Below, in pieces: positions 618-60,974 of a stretch of 60,974 nt of DNA (positions are counted from its first letter, which is position 1; each line of letters begins with the position of its first letter). The position numbers and the translations under genes were made by a program. Below the pieces are notes generated by a model, which was not told the origin of the DNA, searched no databases, and saw nothing but the letters and a program-made list of their open reading frames with translations. The stretch spans positions 1 to 60,974 of the IMG/VR virus record IMGVR_UViG_3300043775_003665; one strand, written 5' to 3'. Source of the DNA: a virus.

Positions 618-3600
618 TTAAAAAACTCTAACCGCACGAACTCTACAGAGTTTAGTTTTTAGATTCCCGAAGCCGTCGTCATAGGCCATAGTTAAAGTAG
701 TAGTGGCATAGTAATTGTGGTTATAGCTACTGGGAGCATGTGCCTCCAGTTTATCAGTAGGGTTTTGGGTTGAGGACCACCAATAAAAATAGTCGTCGAA
801 CCCGGTGCCGTCGCCAGATATACGGGGAAGATTTTCAAATGATGGAATATTCCAGGCATTGTCTAAAATTTCTTTTAGTTCATATCTACTTGGCAAGAAC
901 CAATCATTATAAGTCTTAAGTACAGCCTGTCCATTTTCTATCACCGTATATGGCACACTATAATCTGCACAAAGTCTTGCAGCTCCATTCGCATCTGGAC
1001 AGTTTTTTACTATGGCTTCGGTGTTTTTTCGGCCGTAACCAAACCCATCACGTGTCATCACTCGATTATTTTCGTTTAGTTGGCCAGCGCCGCCGCCTCC
1101 TATATCCAACGTAGGGCATCCCCACGGTGCTCCGGCCGGGGCAAGCTCACCTGATACAATAAATCCATGTTGTTTATTATCCGTAAACCCATAGTCATAA
1201 CCTTGAGAAGGATTGAAGATATATCCAATTGTTCCACCTCCATACGCATCACCTACCTTAAGAACTACATTCTCCGGTGGTGGTGGAGTTACAATTACCG
1301 GCGGCGGATTTGGCGGCGGCGGCGGTACATAAGTCTTATCATACATGTATATAAATGGGCAATTTGTAATACTATTGCTAGTATCATCATGTCCTCCAGA
1401 AGTGATTCTAATAACAGCATTAGGATTTACTGCATAATCGGCTGCAGTATATTTCCACCACACTGCAATTTTCTGGGGATTACTGAAGTACCGGTATATG
1501 GCCTGCAGGTTCTTTTCCACAGTATCATAATAGTTACCATACAATCTTAGATTGTCTTTGGCAACAAAATCTAGAAAAGGGTACTTACCCTTTTCCGGAG
1601 CGTCGTACATAACGGGTATACCATTGGCTGGGTTAATTATTCCAGTTTCTGCTAATAATTCAGCACTCTCAAGAGGCAAACTCAACACTCGATCATTATC
1701 TGCTCCACTCGAACTATCTGTCGGGGCCCCATAATGCCATTGATTTTGGTCGCCATCAGCATTTACGTAATTAAAGGTGTATTCTGTTTGCCGTAATTGT
1801 TGAACATCATCATTATGAGACCCTCGATTATCAAATGGACCTGCGTTTGTGAAATACCCTTTCCTTCGTCCTGGTTCACTAATGGAGGTCGCTTTTTTAT
1901 ATCCAGCATGAATAATCTCAAACTTAGATTCACCGGCTGGATGGGACAAAGTGGTGAATGCCCCAGGATTATGCCGTTTATGAATAAATAACATAACACC
2001 GCCAGTAAAATCTAATGGTACTGTATATTGAATAACATGAGGTGATGTATTATGGGGTACTATAATGATTTTTCCAGGTTTGATTGTGAGGGTGATGGGC
2101 AACGGTAAATCTTTATCTTGTACTAATCTTACATATGCACCTTCCCACGGGTACATCAGAGCAAATGCGGAATTAATTTTGACATCAGAACTGTTGTTAG
2201 TAAGGCTTACGCCTAAATTCTTAGGGTAACCATCGGTCCCAAAGGGGCTGTAGGTATATTCAGTACCTTTTATTTGTTCTTTAGCCCAGAATTTGCAACT
2301 TTTTCCGGCACGCCAGAATTCTATAGTCTTCTTGTAAAATAGTATCCCACTGAGCCTGTAAGGTGTTTCTGTTTCTTCGGTTAAACCACCTGGAAGGGCT
2401 GTAAAACCAGTCTCATTAGTTGCTTTAGTTGCTTGGGGATTCCATAGTCCTATTGTATCCCCAATACCTGTTGATTTTAATTTATCACCGACCCCGACGC
2501 CTAAGTATTCAGCGGATGATCCCGCTGATAAATGGGTGATTAGTCTACTCCATTCCCTTTGTGAAGGCACATGGTAGCCTAATGGAGCCAATATTTTCCT
2601 TTCATTAAAACGAGTGAATGTCATGTATAATTCTCTTTGCTCTAGGGGTAAACTTTTTTCTTTTGCACTTTCATCTTCATGGATCCCCATCACAGCGTAC
2701 CAATTGTACATTCTTCCATAAACTTTCCCATGTGCAAAGTCCTGATTATACCAGCACCAAGCTCCTGTTTTAAGCTTTGCCCAATCTTCGGCATTACCTT
2801 TGTGTTGAGGTATTCGGGTGCCATCTCTATATGTTGTAACATTTAAGTTTTTGGTTGTCCACGTTTGGGTACCTATGGTAACTGTAGGAGGAATTGCAAA
2901 AAGCTTTAAATCGAATTCGTAATCTATCTTCGTTGGATATCCTATATTTGGAATTCCTTCTACCTTAATAAATATTGTTAATGTTTCTCCTAAATTACTT
3001 ACAGATGAACCTGTAATTGTCATATATTGAGAACTACTTGTTAGTATAGGTGGAGTGGTTTCTTTGAATTCATATCCTTCTTTAGCAGTATAAACCAATT
3101 GAAAGGTATATCCCGTTTGAAAATTATATGTTATATTTGTTGATAGTGCAGTGTCGCATGTTACAAATTCGGAGTCTACTCTAACAAAATTAATAGGAAT
3201 AGTAAAAAGAACAATAGAATTAAGCGTGTTAATACCTAAATTTACAATATTCCCATTACCATCCGGATGATCGCTTACTGCAATTAATATACTAATTTTA
3301 GTTGGATTTGCTCCAGTGCCTACCGGGGTTATACTACTAATTGTAGCCCATGATGGAACTCCAGTAATACTTGATGTAGGTGGAATAGTTGACCACCAAT
3401 ACCCACTAGGTGCAACTACTTCATATGCAACTGAATAGGAAGCATCAGCAGACTTGTCAATTACAGTACCTAAAAAGTAAGGATTTGAAGTTAATTTCGA
3501 TGGGCTCGTATTTATATCTATTAAATTAAATGTTAATCCTACAACAGGATTCTGTCCAGTTCCTTTATCTGACCAATATAAATCATTTCTCCCTAAATAA

Positions 3601-44082: not shown

Positions 44083-44109
44083 AATATTTCTTTGTTTTAA
44101 TTAGATATG

Positions 44110-44142
44110 TAAATATAATCAAAAAACTCCAGACTGTAAAAT
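44110..44142 (-). promoter_or_regulatory. Class I phage promoter upstream of the 43822-44082 gene
   Basis: On the minus strand TTTTAC (44137-44142), 18 bases, then TATATTTAC (44110-44118). The upstream hexamer lies in the loop of the overlapping terminator. The leader after it (ATCTAATTAAAACAAAG) is shared with other copies. Confidence 0.7.
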
Positions 44143-44149
44143 CTGGAGT
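44122..44149 (-). terminator. Intrinsic terminator within the 83-bp repeat, copy 1
   Basis: CTCCAGA and TCTGGAG form a 7-bp stem around an 8-base loop, followed by six T on the minus strand. It ends transcription from the 44162-44431 gene. Confidence 0.75.
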
Positions 44150-44161
44150 GTTAATTTTTTG

Positions 44162-44431
44162 TTAAAGTTTATTTTTTCTCTGTCCCAACTTTCTAGTACC
44201 ATATTCAATAGTTACTGCAGTATAATCAACCTCGTTTTCAAACATATATTTATCGTACTCTAATATACCTTCTCTAGTATAGATTTTAATGGTCTCATTT
44301 TTTTGCAATCTATTAAAGACGTCTTCGGTAACATTAAGAATGTTGCCTTTTGCAATACTTACTACTTCAATACCTCTACTAAATTCTTTGATGTCTTGAT
44401 TTGCTACTAAAATAAATTCTCTGTGTGTCAT
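44162..44431 (-). CDS. Unknown protein of 89 residues, flanked by direct repeats
   Basis: The product begins MTHREFILVANQDIKEFSRGIEVV and looks beta-rich in its first half, as if a small barrel (SIAKGNILNVTEDVF, ETIKIYTREG). Both flanks are copies of an 83-bp repeat with promoter and terminator, so it forms a self-contained expression cassette. No family recognised. Confidence 0.7.
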   Translation of the reverse strand: MTHREFILVANQDIKEFSRGIEVVSIAKGNILNVTEDVFNRLQKNETIKIYTREGILEYDKYMFENEVDYTAVTIEYGTRKLGQRKNKL

Positions 44432-44457
44432 TGTGTTTCTTTGTTTTAATTAGATAT

Positions 44458-44490
44458 GTAAATATAATCAAAAAACTCCAGACTGTAAAA
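44458..44490 (-). promoter_or_regulatory. Class I phage promoter upstream of the 44162-44431 gene
   Basis: TTTTAC (44485-44490), 18 bases, TATATTTAC (44458-44466) on the minus strand, as in the other copies. Confidence 0.7.
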
Positions 44491-44497
44491 TCTGGAG
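44470..44497 (-). terminator. Intrinsic terminator within the 83-bp repeat, copy 2
   Basis: Same 7-bp CTCCAGA/TCTGGAG stem, 8-base loop and T-run as copy 1, on the minus strand. It follows the membrane-protein gene. Confidence 0.75.
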
Positions 44498-44516
44498 TGT
44501 TAATTTTTTGTTAAAG

Positions 44517-44861
44517 TTATTTCCAAAATATTTGCACACAAATTATGATAAATGAAAGAGCTAAACATATCAATGTTTTAGTATTTAAAGCCTCACCTGT
44601 TATTAAATATGTTAAAAGAGAGAAAGAAATCATCCCCATTACAAACCCAATAAATCTTCCAGGCCATAATTGTCCATCATAATATTCTGCAATTAATCGA
44701 GTAGCCTCTATAAAAATATATGATATTGTAGAACCTCCAATTACAGCTACTAAAACGGGATTTCTTTTAAACCATGGCCACATAAACTGACCATTTGTCT
44801 GGAACCATATAAATGATTGTCCAAATAGGAACAATAAGATTCCATATATTAATGCTCTCAA
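44517..44861 (-). CDS. Small integral membrane protein, four predicted membrane segments
   Basis: The 114-residue product has hydrophobic segments at about 1-20, 33-52, 66-88 and 93-112, with short hydrophilic links (QTNGQFMWPWFKRNP, EYYDGQLWPGRF). The pattern recalls small transporter-like or holin-like proteins but no family was firmly recognised. It overlaps the RNase HII gene by four bases (start inside its end). Confidence 0.72.
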   Translation of the reverse strand: MRALIYGILLFLFGQSFIWFQTNGQFMWPWFKRNPVLVAVIGGSTISYIFIEATRLIAEYYDGQLWPGRFIGFVMGMISFSLLTYLITGEALNTKTLICLALSFIIICVQIFWK

Positions 44862-57512: not shown

Positions 57513-58180
57513 TCAGGTCAATCTGAGCCAACCATCCCCCATTGGTAACGGTCTTATTGGTTTATTATAGGTTCTATCTGATTTTTGTAACGGTGGTAAC
57601 CATTCTATCGGTCGTGATTGGTCTTTTGGTCACCTCCCGCTCCGGGTAATATTTTGGGTAGGGGCAACATTGAGACTTTGGGGGTGGCGGTAGGACCATT
57701 GGAGAGCCATTCGAGGACCATTGGGTACTGGAGGGTCGGTCAATGCTCGGATGGCACTATTCCCGGACGGGGATAACTAGTGCACTTCTATGAAACACAT
57801 TTATCAAAGGTCTATATTAGTTAGGAAGTCTCTAGAGTCCTAGAGAGTCATGTACCCCTCCCCTAGAGCCCTTTGAAAAATTCTAGACCTGCCCCAGCCT
57901 TTTTCCGGCAATTGAGAGCTGCTACGGCTTCTGGTGCTCTAGGGCCCTGAAGACCCTGGGCCTTAGGGACACTGTAGGGTCCTCCTGTAGTGCAGGGCCC
58001 TCAGGTACTACAGGTACTACCTGTTCTATAGGTCATATTAATGTATATACTGTGCAGGTAACAACCTGCATTGAAATACATTGACCTGCGTTGCCTGTGC
58101 CAACAGTTGATTGGTGTACTACAGGTTGGACAATATATTGCCTATAGTGCATATTACACCTGTAAGCATATTGCACTTAT

Positions 58181-58432
58181 TGAATATTATTGAAATACAT
58201 TGAATATTGTTGATATGCATTGAAATACATTGAAATACATTGAATATTGTTGATATGCATTGAAATACATTGAATATTGTTGATATGCATTGAGCCGGGC
58301 ATTGAATATTGTTGATATGCATTGAGCCGGGCATTGAGCCGGGCATTGTTCTAGGGCATTGATCCTGGACATTGATCCGGACAACTTGCCGGGCATTGAT
58401 CCTGGAGATTGTTCCCGGAGCATTGATCCCGG
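58181..58432. repeat. Array of short repeats phased at about 10 bp
   Basis: The plus strand reads as consecutive units that start with TG: 13 ten-base units of three kinds (TGAATATTGT, TGATATGCAT, TGAAATACAT). About nine 10-14-base G/C-rich units (TGAGCCGGGCAT, TGATCCTGGACAT and variants) are mixed in towards the right. A few more units lie near 58071-58095. Ten-base periodicity equals one DNA helical turn, so the array could be bent or could present binding sites on one face. The lengths are not multiples of three overall, which argues against coding. Confidence 0.8.
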
Positions 58433-59286: not shown

Positions 59287-59712
59287 TTAAGCAACTACTG
59301 GAACTTGGTAAGGAACATATGCTCTATCAGCCCAAGTCTTGGCTCCTACTGCAGTATATTGTGCCATATTATATAGGTTTGTATTTGAGTATATTTGGTT
59401 GATAGTACCTACTGTTAGGTGACCTAGGATGGTTTCGTCGATTATTACGATTTTGTTCCCTTTACGGGCGAAGATGGTTAACCATGTATCAAAACCATCT
59501 AGACAGAATTCAACCGTCTGTAAGGCACCTTTCTTATACCCTGTGATAATTGATTCTGGATGTTCCATAAAGTATGTGTTATCCCATTCTCTGGCATCGT
59601 TGATCGTCATGAACCCGGCTCTACACTTGGTGATGAATCTGAATTTCCCTTTTTGAAAGTCTTTTAAGTAGTTTACTGTGTTGATTCCGGCAATGTTTAC
59701 TAAATTTGTCAT
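59287..59712 (-). CDS. Unknown protein of 141 residues
   Basis: The product (MTNLVNIAGINTVNYLKDFQKGKFRF) looks like a mixed alpha/beta protein with several aromatic residues (EWDNTYFMEHPES, FDTWLTIFARKGN). It is expressed from a class I promoter at 59742-59774 and is the first minus-strand gene left of the divergent region, so it is probably made early. No family recognised. Confidence 0.75.
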   Translation of the reverse strand: MTNLVNIAGINTVNYLKDFQKGKFRFITKCRAGFMTINDAREWDNTYFMEHPESIITGYKKGALQTVEFCLDGFDTWLTIFARKGNKIVIIDETILGHLTVGTINQIYSNTNLYNMAQYTAVGAKTWADRAYVPYQVPVVA

Positions 59713-59741
59713 AATGGTGTGTTTTTGTTATTATTAGATAT

Positions 59742-59774
59742 GTAAATATAATCAATTTCTATGAATCCGGAAAC
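59742..59774 (-). promoter_or_regulatory. Class I phage promoter upstream of the 59287-59712 gene
   Basis: GTTTCC (59769-59774), 18 bases, TATATTTAC (59742-59750) on the minus strand, with GTTAATAAC 38 bases upstream of the latter, as before the 47994-48287 gene. Confidence 0.7.
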
Positions 59775-59828: not shown

Positions 59829-59861
59829 GTTTCGGATATCGTTTAAATTGATTATATTTAC
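59829..59861 (+). promoter_or_regulatory. Class I phage promoter for the structured RNA candidate
   Basis: GTTTCG (59829-59834), 18 bases, TATATTTAC (59853-59861) on the plus strand. Transcription would begin near 59866-59869. It is divergent from the promoter at 59742-59774, which makes this the point where transcription parts. Confidence 0.68.
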
Positions 59862-59865
59862 ATAT

Positions 59866-60037
59866 GAAAAATAACAATATGACATAACGCTCCCACGGGA
59901 AAAGAATCGAAAGATTCGACATGGGCGGTCCTTTAAACCAGGGGAGGAAGAGTAGACTCCGACCTGCTTTATAAAAAGATATAGGCCGCCACTAGGAAAC
60001 TTTAACAAAACTTTAACACTTAAAAGTTTCCCCTTTT
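59866..60037 (+). ncRNA. Candidate structured non-coding RNA
   Basis: Between two class I promoters lie about 170 bases without a real frame but with several strong helices. GAATC-GAAA-GATTC (59904-59917) is a hairpin with a GNRA tetraloop, closed further out by CCCA (59892-59895)/TGGG (59922-59925). CAGGGGAG (59939-59946) pairs with CTCC (59957-59960) and CCTG (59963-59966), leaving a two-base bulge. GGCGG (59924-59928) can pair with CCGCC (59986-59990) around that hairpin; this competes with the CCCA/TGGG stem, so two folds are possible. A terminator follows (59995-60037). I recognise no known RNA family. A short peptide message (7 or 17 codons) cannot be fully excluded. Confidence 0.55.
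59995..60037 (+). terminator. Intrinsic-terminator-like hairpin after the RNA candidate
   Basis: GGAAACTTT (59995-60003) and AAAGTTTCC (60023-60031) form a 9-bp stem with a 19-base loop, followed by CCTTTT. Its 3' arm contains the upstream hexamer of the next class I promoter, as in the other terminator-promoter modules. Confidence 0.6.
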
Positions 60038-60058
60038 GAAACTATTGATTATATTTAC
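60026..60058 (+). promoter_or_regulatory. Class I phage promoter upstream of the 60082-60276 gene
   Basis: GTTTCC (60026-60031), 18 bases, TATATTTAC (60050-60058) on the plus strand, followed by the common leader ATCTAATTAAAACAAAG before the ATG at 60082. Confidence 0.7.
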
Positions 60059-60081
60059 ATATCTAATTAAAACAAAGAACT

Positions 60082-60276
60082 ATGAAAATCACTATCAACA
60101 TCCTTCCAGCCCTAGGTTCCCTAATCGCGTTCGGGGTTACGTATCTCTTATTAACTGGAACCGCTCAAAAATTCGTACCGTTTGCTGGTACCCTTAATGA
60201 ATTTTCAACTGCTATGTGCACCACTATGATAGGTGTTGGATTACTCATCTGCTCATTCGAAAAAATTAACAAATAA
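60082..60276 (+). CDS. Small membrane protein of 64 residues
   Basis: The product has two hydrophobic segments, about 7-26 (LPALGSLIAFGVTYLLLTGT) and 42-57 (TAMCTTMIGVGLLICS), separated by a short loop with FVPFAGTLNEF. It is the first plus-strand gene after the transcription divide and has a complete class I promoter. A role at the inner membrane early in infection is plausible. No family recognised. Confidence 0.75.
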   Translation: MKITINILPALGSLIAFGVTYLLLTGTAQKFVPFAGTLNEFSTAMCTTMIGVGLLICSFEKINK

Positions 60277-60325: not shown

Positions 60326-60974
60326 ATGGCAATTGCAACTCTTTCTAACTCATTAATCGAACAACGTAAAGTAGCTACATTGGAGGCTCAAAACCTTCGT
60401 AAGGTAGTACCTTTCCGCGATATCAATTTAATCGATGGAGAATCTATCGAATATAATGGTCAAAAAATCAATTTGACTCCAAACGCATTCAAAAACCTAC
60501 TAGGTCTATTAGGAATGTCAAATCAATTTGCAACCAAATTCGAAACCCTTTTTACTAAAGAGGCCAAGTCTCAGTTTATTAACACTATGAAAAATGCAAT
60601 GGCATCTAATAGTGGTAAACTTTCTGAAGTAACCCTTGTACTTAACCCTATTAGTAAATCGGTAGTGGCTATCACTAAGAAAGATCAATTTGGTATATCC
60701 AATCAACAATTCATGGGAGTTGCTGAGAATATCATCGATAACCACGGAATGGACGTAACTAACTGGTCAGTAGATCCAGGAACTGGTATAGTAACCATTA
60801 ATGCTTTTAACCCAAATGCAAACTTTGCAGTACAGGGTTTATCTAACGAGGTATTTACTGGAGGAGTTACCTTTAAGAACTCTCCTAAAGATGGTTTCCA
60901 AGTCCTTCCTTATATTAACCGTCAGTTTTGTACTAATGGTTTAACCACTGCTATGGCTGAGGAGTCTTATACTC
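60326..60974 (+). CDS. Unknown protein, partial (C-terminus beyond window), possibly DUF932-like
   Basis: The frame opens at 60326 (MAIATLSNSLIEQRKVATLEAQ) and stays open for about 216 codons to the window edge. The part seen has helices (NAFKNLLGLLGMSNQFATKF) and then strands (TLVLNPISKSVVAITKKDQFG), and ends with YINRQFCTNGLTTAM. An R..CTNGL motif of this kind occurs in DUF932-type phage and plasmid proteins, so that family is possible. Codons more often end in C or G than in the late genes to the left. Confidence 0.82.
   Translation, partial: MAIATLSNSLIEQRKVATLEAQNLRKVVPFRDINLIDGESIEYNGQKINLTPNAFKNLLGLLGMSNQFATKFETLFTKEAKSQFINTMKNAMASNSGKLSEVTLVLNPISKSVVAITKKDQFGISNQQFMGVAENIIDNHGMDVTNWSVDPGTGIVTINAFNPNANFAVQGLSNEVFTGGVTFKNSPKDGFQVLPYINRQFCTNGLTTAMAEESYT

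Follow-up and report, generated by a model that had tools for sequence, protein, structure and literature searches.

Near one end of a linear virus fragment of 60,974 bases, the whole of which was analysed and is here called the window, transcription divides: genes up to 59.7 kb are read from the minus strand, those beyond 60.08 kb from the plus strand. An earlier note had placed at this divide an independent, folded transcript of no recognised family, possibly a regulatory RNA, a decoy, or a switch acting on the downstream gene. Is there an RNA here at all, and if so, does it serve its neighbour or act elsewhere? We conclude that the segment at 59864-59970 (Table 1), a candidate stand-alone small RNA encoded by a Bacteroidota-infecting virus, is almost certainly one member of a real, uncatalogued family of small RNAs in Bacteroidota phages. 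The family comprises 56 distinct diverged copies spread over about 45 very different phage records, where the record counts are lower bounds derived from exact-match patterns and several records are near-duplicates.

Table 1. Features at the transcription divide (positions are those of the window).
Feature	Position	Strand	Remarks
Divergent 141-aa gene	59287-59712	-	own promoter at 59738-59756
RNA promoter, ATTGATTATATTTACATAT	59847-59865	+	exact repeat of the downstream-gene promoter
-7 box, TATATTTA	59853-59860	+	matches the sigma-A box of flavobacteria; start (+1) predicted near 59865
A-rich 5' leader, ATGAAAAATAACAATATGACATAAC	59864-59888	+	near-invariant in the window clade and in distant L071 and L073, both found by this leader itself
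P1, putative small hairpin UCC-CACG-GGA	59891-59900	+	seen by eye; short; moderate support
P2 hairpin, GAAUC-GAAA-GAUUC	59904-59917	+	GNRA tetraloop, kept in the clade
GGGCGG element	59923-59928	+	GGG near-invariant in aligned copies; GGGUU in type 2
P4 hairpin	59929-59945	+	UCCUU 59929-59933; 7-nt loop UAAACCA 59934-59940; GGGGA 59941-59945
Conserved strand, GGAAGAGUAGACUCC	59946-59960	+	in L071, L073 and Larrie independently of the core pattern
P5 hairpin	59949-59970	+	GUAG 59952-59955 with CUGC 59964-59967; loop ACUCCGAC
Variable 3' segment	59971-59994	+	poorly conserved in the clade; transcript extent uncertain
Candidate terminator hairpin	59995-60037	+	59995-60003 with 60023-60031, then CCUUUU; fold z -2.7
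Separate promoter of the downstream operon	60044-60062	+	ATTGATTATATTTACATAT, identical to the RNA's promoter
64-aa ORF	60082-60276	+	no Pfam or PHROG match; homologues in L011, L012 and L147
DUF932-like gene	60326-60973	+	truncated at the contig end; relatives have 378 aa

Close homologues occupy the same place in nine related contigs besides the window; these contigs were reached through neighbouring proteins, and a DNA pattern made from the RNA returned the same set. Across the nine, the RNA is far better conserved than its own flanks: some 65 nt hardly change in the window clade, whereas the flanking sequence, the distance to the promoter and the ORFs downstream all diverge. Homologues differ by indels of 1-3 nt, and the conservation is not that of a coding sequence. 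A covariance model gives one match per genome in the clade and none in 21 further records in which a relative of the DUF932-like gene occurs, in phage MA9V-2, or in contig G031, which ends near the site. The core hardly varies within the window clade, from which alone a structure is not provable.

More distant copies were reached by independent routes (a leader pattern, BLAST to a cultured phage, and a core pattern), and this convergence on the same core counts for the family. A pattern taken from the conserved leader only returned L071, L072 and L073, which retain the promoter, the leader, a P2 hairpin of other sequence, GGG, a hairpin, and GUAGACUCCGACCUG (L071 has GUAUACUCC where its relatives have GUAGACUCCGACCUG). 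BLAST from this set led to Larrie, a Tenacibaculum phage in culture: three copies lie in stretches of it without annotation, and a fourth, convergent one was recognised later. TAnnTTTG boxes stand near 16.9, 18.7 and 19.4 kb of the Larrie record. The second-round core-pattern search yielded 44 IMG/VR stretches, nearly all with the full hairpin and only L094 clearly a chance match, and one contig of a metagenome-assembled genome (MAG); in these members part of the core's invariance is imposed by the search pattern. That contig is the one real match among nine in the pattern search of genome contigs. Chance matches (L066-L070, L074, L094, L112, L113 and L115-L120) were removed. The MAG contig (L114, or G064:C5), 27 kb long and binned to a bacterium, carries three copies and a DUF932 gene, and is probably a mis-binned phage contig.

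As the earlier note had it, no known family is recognisable: Rfam 15 gave no match at the gathering threshold for the window and nine loci with other copies, and at E up to 10 only chance-level snoRNA and CRISPR matches below threshold. ARAGORN found no tRNA or tmRNA in the window or in the tested loci around copies, the single tRNA-??? in L075 lying away from the RNA copy. We found no open-access paper describing the family's RNA, and the paper on Larrie mentions no RNA at the copy sites.

The shared core runs from an optional 5' hairpin through GGG(CGN or UU) and P4 to (GGAAGRG or CAGAGGG)UAGACUCC-RACCURC, and occurs as type 1 (GGGCGN...GGAAGRG) or type 2 (GGGUU...CAGAGGG); the GGG was part of the second-round pattern, and its invariance there is partly by construction. 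P4 follows directly on the GGG; its stem is 5 bp long, its loop in most copies 7 nt, and the window copy has this form. In 24 type-1 copies 97.5% of its cells are paired and five of five pairs are compensated (50 compensatory cells); none of 500 shuffles reaches the covariation score, and slid versions are only 39-48% paired. The 17 type-2 copies show 97.3% pairing. Because the search pattern left the stem letters open, the test is not circular, and the acceptance of G-U (27 of 244 P4 pairs) points to RNA rather than DNA. The earlier note had proposed covarying pairs among homologues as a check; these are found in P4, which on this comparative measure is a proven helix.

Downstream of P4, positions 59950-59967 of the window fit the family strand GRGUAGACUCC-RACCURC, within which the 4-bp helix of P5 (GUAG/CURC) is 87.5% paired in 56 copies, compared with 48% in shuffled and at most 50% in slid versions; the variation is mostly one-sided, and P5 is therefore supported rather than proven. 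The window's P5 can be extended to AGAGUAG / CUGCUUU. We propose that a GGG:UCC pseudoknot, both sides of which are invariant, may link the 5' element to the P5 loop. Upstream of the core, the 3-bp stem of P1 is swapped in homologues for GCU/AGC, GCC/GGC, GUU/AGC or GGCC/GGCC. The GAAA-capped helix of the earlier note holds up: stem and GNRA loop are kept (GAAA, GGAA or GAGA in homologues) or are replaced by other hairpins, GGGA-CUAACC-UCCC in L071 and GGGU-UAACC-ACCC in L073. The upstream hairpin scores above shuffles (mean 10.3 versus 6.0) in the 39 copies long enough. One clade (L084, L085, L086, L107 and related copies) seems to lack P2.

Several other pairings did not survive the comparison. 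The 8-bp stem with a two-base bulge described earlier (CAGGGGAG / CUCC-GA-CCUG) is the fold preferred by energy for the single window sequence, and over 24 members it is 51.0% paired, compared with 50.5% when shuffled. The two mutually exclusive pairings claimed for 59923-59928 do exist thermodynamically, but GGGCGG is near-invariant and the switch is unsupported; since energy folding favours the bulged stem and yet that stem is not conserved, we read the two pairings as a folding artefact, with no demonstrated switch. A GGGCGG/YYGYYU helix, 100% paired in the window clade, fails in distant copies, and a GGGUU/AACCU helix, 86% paired in type 2 with no covariation, conflicts with P5; both were dropped. 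Fold free energy by itself is weak (z of -2.1 to -2.2 for the window, about -0.1 to -1.4 for homologues), and it is the comparative evidence, drawn from sequence, that makes the RNA real.

The dedicated promoter of the earlier note is confirmed. Flavobacterial sigma-A promoters carry TAnnTTTG at -12 to -5 (PMC9723704), and this spacing predicts the RNA start given in Table 1. The RNA sits between two identical plus-strand copies of ATTGATTATATTTACATAT, with a divergent copy at 59738. Across the family, a TAnnTTT(G/A) box lies no more than 110 nt upstream of 54 of 56 copies, the window's included (28% expected), and the strict box precedes 50 of the 56 (7% expected); the distance from box to core is 8-31 nt in a short form and 58-65 nt in a long form, to which the window belongs, with one copy at 97 nt. 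Homologues, covariation and promoters together strongly support an independent folded transcript, its transcription being predicted.

Where the window copy ends on its 3' side is uncertain. The terminator proposed earlier exists as a hairpin with CCUUUU, but it overlaps a AACTTTAACA-type block, which this phage also has ahead of other promoters, and the hairpin at 59995-60031 may belong to the next promoter instead. A clear U-tract follows the core in 18 of 56 copies (12.5% expected by shuffling), the window copy having none directly after it. The minus-strand blocks at 44084-44170 and 44437-44518 are near-identical units of AACTTTAACA...TTAACA, a terminator-like hairpin CTCCAG...CTGGAG-T6 and the promoter GATTATATTTACATAT, a terminator fused to the next promoter. 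In the window leader, a very short ORF (ATG-ACA-TAA, 59879-59887; TAG in L017) precedes the structured part, and tiny ORFs such as ATG-GAT-AGA-TAG and ATG-GGA-CCA-TAG or TAA stand in the long-form leaders of L084, L085, L086, L093, L096, L099, L104-L107 and L111. These recall minigenes of two to four codons, and could be chance in such AT-rich DNA.

How the copies are placed bears on what the RNA might do. There is one in the window, two in G047, four in Larrie, five in G050/G056 and about ten in G045, and in multi-copy records they sit in unrelated contexts. Copies occur in both orientations, often antisense to neighbouring genes (at least three in Larrie oppose a block of minus-strand genes, as most in G045 oppose their neighbours), and genes directly after a copy have their own promoter. 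From these three features we infer action in trans, and consider it probable, on sequence grounds, that the RNA is stand-alone and trans-acting. Host copies were sought with the type-1 model in 399 Flavobacteriaceae genomes, none of which gave one; few candidates were scored per genome, and the result is weak evidence.

Some further arrangements deserve record. Type-1 and type-2 copies are often convergent, about 80-100 nt apart (L084, L093, L104, L105, L081 and L075:2521-2639), such that read-through of either would yield a near-perfect hairpin. In the 256-kb phage G047, a tandem duplication of about 1,045 bp takes in the RNA together with two ORFs (L147:5500-7470). On the minus strand of the window, GTTAGAGTAGACTCC at 3171-3185, followed by GAAT, has two mismatches to the core strand and is possibly a core remnant, or chance (2 of 100 shuffles match as well as the window), and overlapping ORFs with repeated INNIQC/ISTIFNVFQC units adjoin the divide at 58119-58423.

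We propose that the host RNA polymerase would transcribe the RNA from its own sigma-A-type promoter, and that the RNA would fold into an optional 5' hairpin, the covarying P4, and a P5 presenting the conserved ACUCCRAC loop, possibly joined by a short pseudoknot to the GGG before P4. Acting in trans, its near-invariant strand (GGG ... GRGUAGACUCC-RACCURC) would be recognised by one conserved protein of host or phage, so that the RNA would work as a protein-binding regulator or decoy, two roles named earlier that are compatible with the evidence. We prefer protein binding because an invariant strand across such different phages asks for an invariant partner. A protein partner we hold to be a somewhat better bet than a complementary RNA, and we lean, by a similarly modest degree, towards the explanation as a whole, a stand-alone, trans-acting, protein-binding phage RNA predicted from sequence.

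The partner might instead be an RNA. Conserved single-stranded segments beside variable scaffold hairpins are typical of antisense RNAs, and here about 20 nt of conserved, largely single-stranded sequence lies beside such a hairpin; the GUAGACUCC-RACCU strand would be a seed pairing with a conserved host or phage RNA, presented by the P5 loop ACUCCRAC. Against this, complementarity to flavobacterial 16S or 23S rRNA does not exceed shuffles (rRNA antisense or mimicry was rejected on the same result), window sites for GTAGACTCCGACC are not in excess, and a seed that stays constant over phages so different would require a target that is equally constant. We rate an antisense role as rather unlikely.

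The neighbourhood of a DUF932-family gene raises the question of control in cis. Such a gene (PF06067 or phrog_1362) stands at most about 3 kb from a copy in the MAG contig and in most of the 12 records with a PF06067 match, together about five clades, and a DUF932-like gene lies directly downstream on the same strand in four (the window clade, G045, G035 and G064:C5), with one small ORF between in the window clade and G064; the association was noticed post hoc and is only a lead. The downstream genes outside the window are at G045:13095-13742, G035:48623-49285 and L146:7572-8468. That of the window clade is homologous to phrog_1362, with a weak PF06067 match in G003; its predicted protein structure (mean pLDDT 48) is unusable. 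A RecA/RadA-like ATPase gene (L147:10248-11381) is also nearby in relatives of the window clade. A cis-acting leader, attenuator or switch for the DUF932-like operon, the last of which the earlier note had suggested, is nevertheless improbable: in place of the shared promoter and 5' UTR of a riboswitch or cis-leader, a second promoter separates RNA and gene in all those cases, most other copies have no DUF932-like gene downstream, many run antisense to their neighbours or lie at a distance from any such gene, and homologues do not keep the alternative stems.

The compact core, near-invariant strand, variable helices and possible pseudoknot would suit a small ribozyme that cleaves itself, or a processed guide-like RNA, of a class not yet recognised. 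However, no Rfam ribozyme family matched even below threshold, and among the gene families shared by these loci, not all of them annotated, no nuclease or reverse transcriptase beside a copy was conspicuous; we think this reading very improbable. Finally, a DNA-level element (replication origin or recombination site) whose palindromes merely look like RNA, as the position at a transcription divide and the near-palindromic convergent pairs might suggest, is scarcely credible given up to about ten copies per record, G-U pairs in P4, a promoter on the sense side, and a GC skew that falls along all of the 234-kb relative G003 and, apart from a small plus-strand island, does not turn at the RNA; on this skew a replication origin was rejected.

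The family's core is near-constant in phages that range from about 40 to 350 kb and whose gene contents are unrelated, and one of them has it up to about ten times; such a core must touch something constant in Bacteroidota cells or in these phages. As a speculation that we hold unlikely, the RNA could be a widespread multi-copy effector, made early by the host polymerase and including the convergent type-1/type-2 pairs. It would capture or inhibit a single conserved machine of the host, such as the polymerase, a regulator that binds RNA, or a nuclease of defence systems. Both phage Larrie and its Tenacibaculum host are in culture and offer a testable handle. Beyond a few model systems, little has been done to catalogue structured phage RNAs, and the two covariance models could annotate dark intergenic DNA in many metagenomic phages.

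Among known systems, the type III toxin-antitoxin RNAs (ToxI-like) are, as small folded protein-binding RNAs, a working analogy only: the window region has no tandem repeats and no Rfam match, and no ToxN-like or other toxin gene was recognised among the scanned neighbours. 6S RNA is a small RNA that touches a conserved protein, as this one would, again as analogy only, whereas this family has no long rod with a central bubble and no Rfam match. The antiterminator RNAs of the put/EAR type are also structured, lie just 3' of a promoter and have a conserved sequence core; here, by contrast, a gene that follows the RNA has a promoter of its own, and behind many copies there is no gene in sense. 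GOLLD, ROOL and OLE are likewise structured RNAs derived from phages or bacteria and of unclear function, but they are several hundred nt long, whereas the core of this family, without an Rfam match, is about 60 nt. Stand-alone phage small RNAs are short intergenic transcripts with their own host-type promoter and a proposed action in trans, the very layout predicted here from sequence; this family differs from them in being common to many phage groups, with one core and often in many copies.
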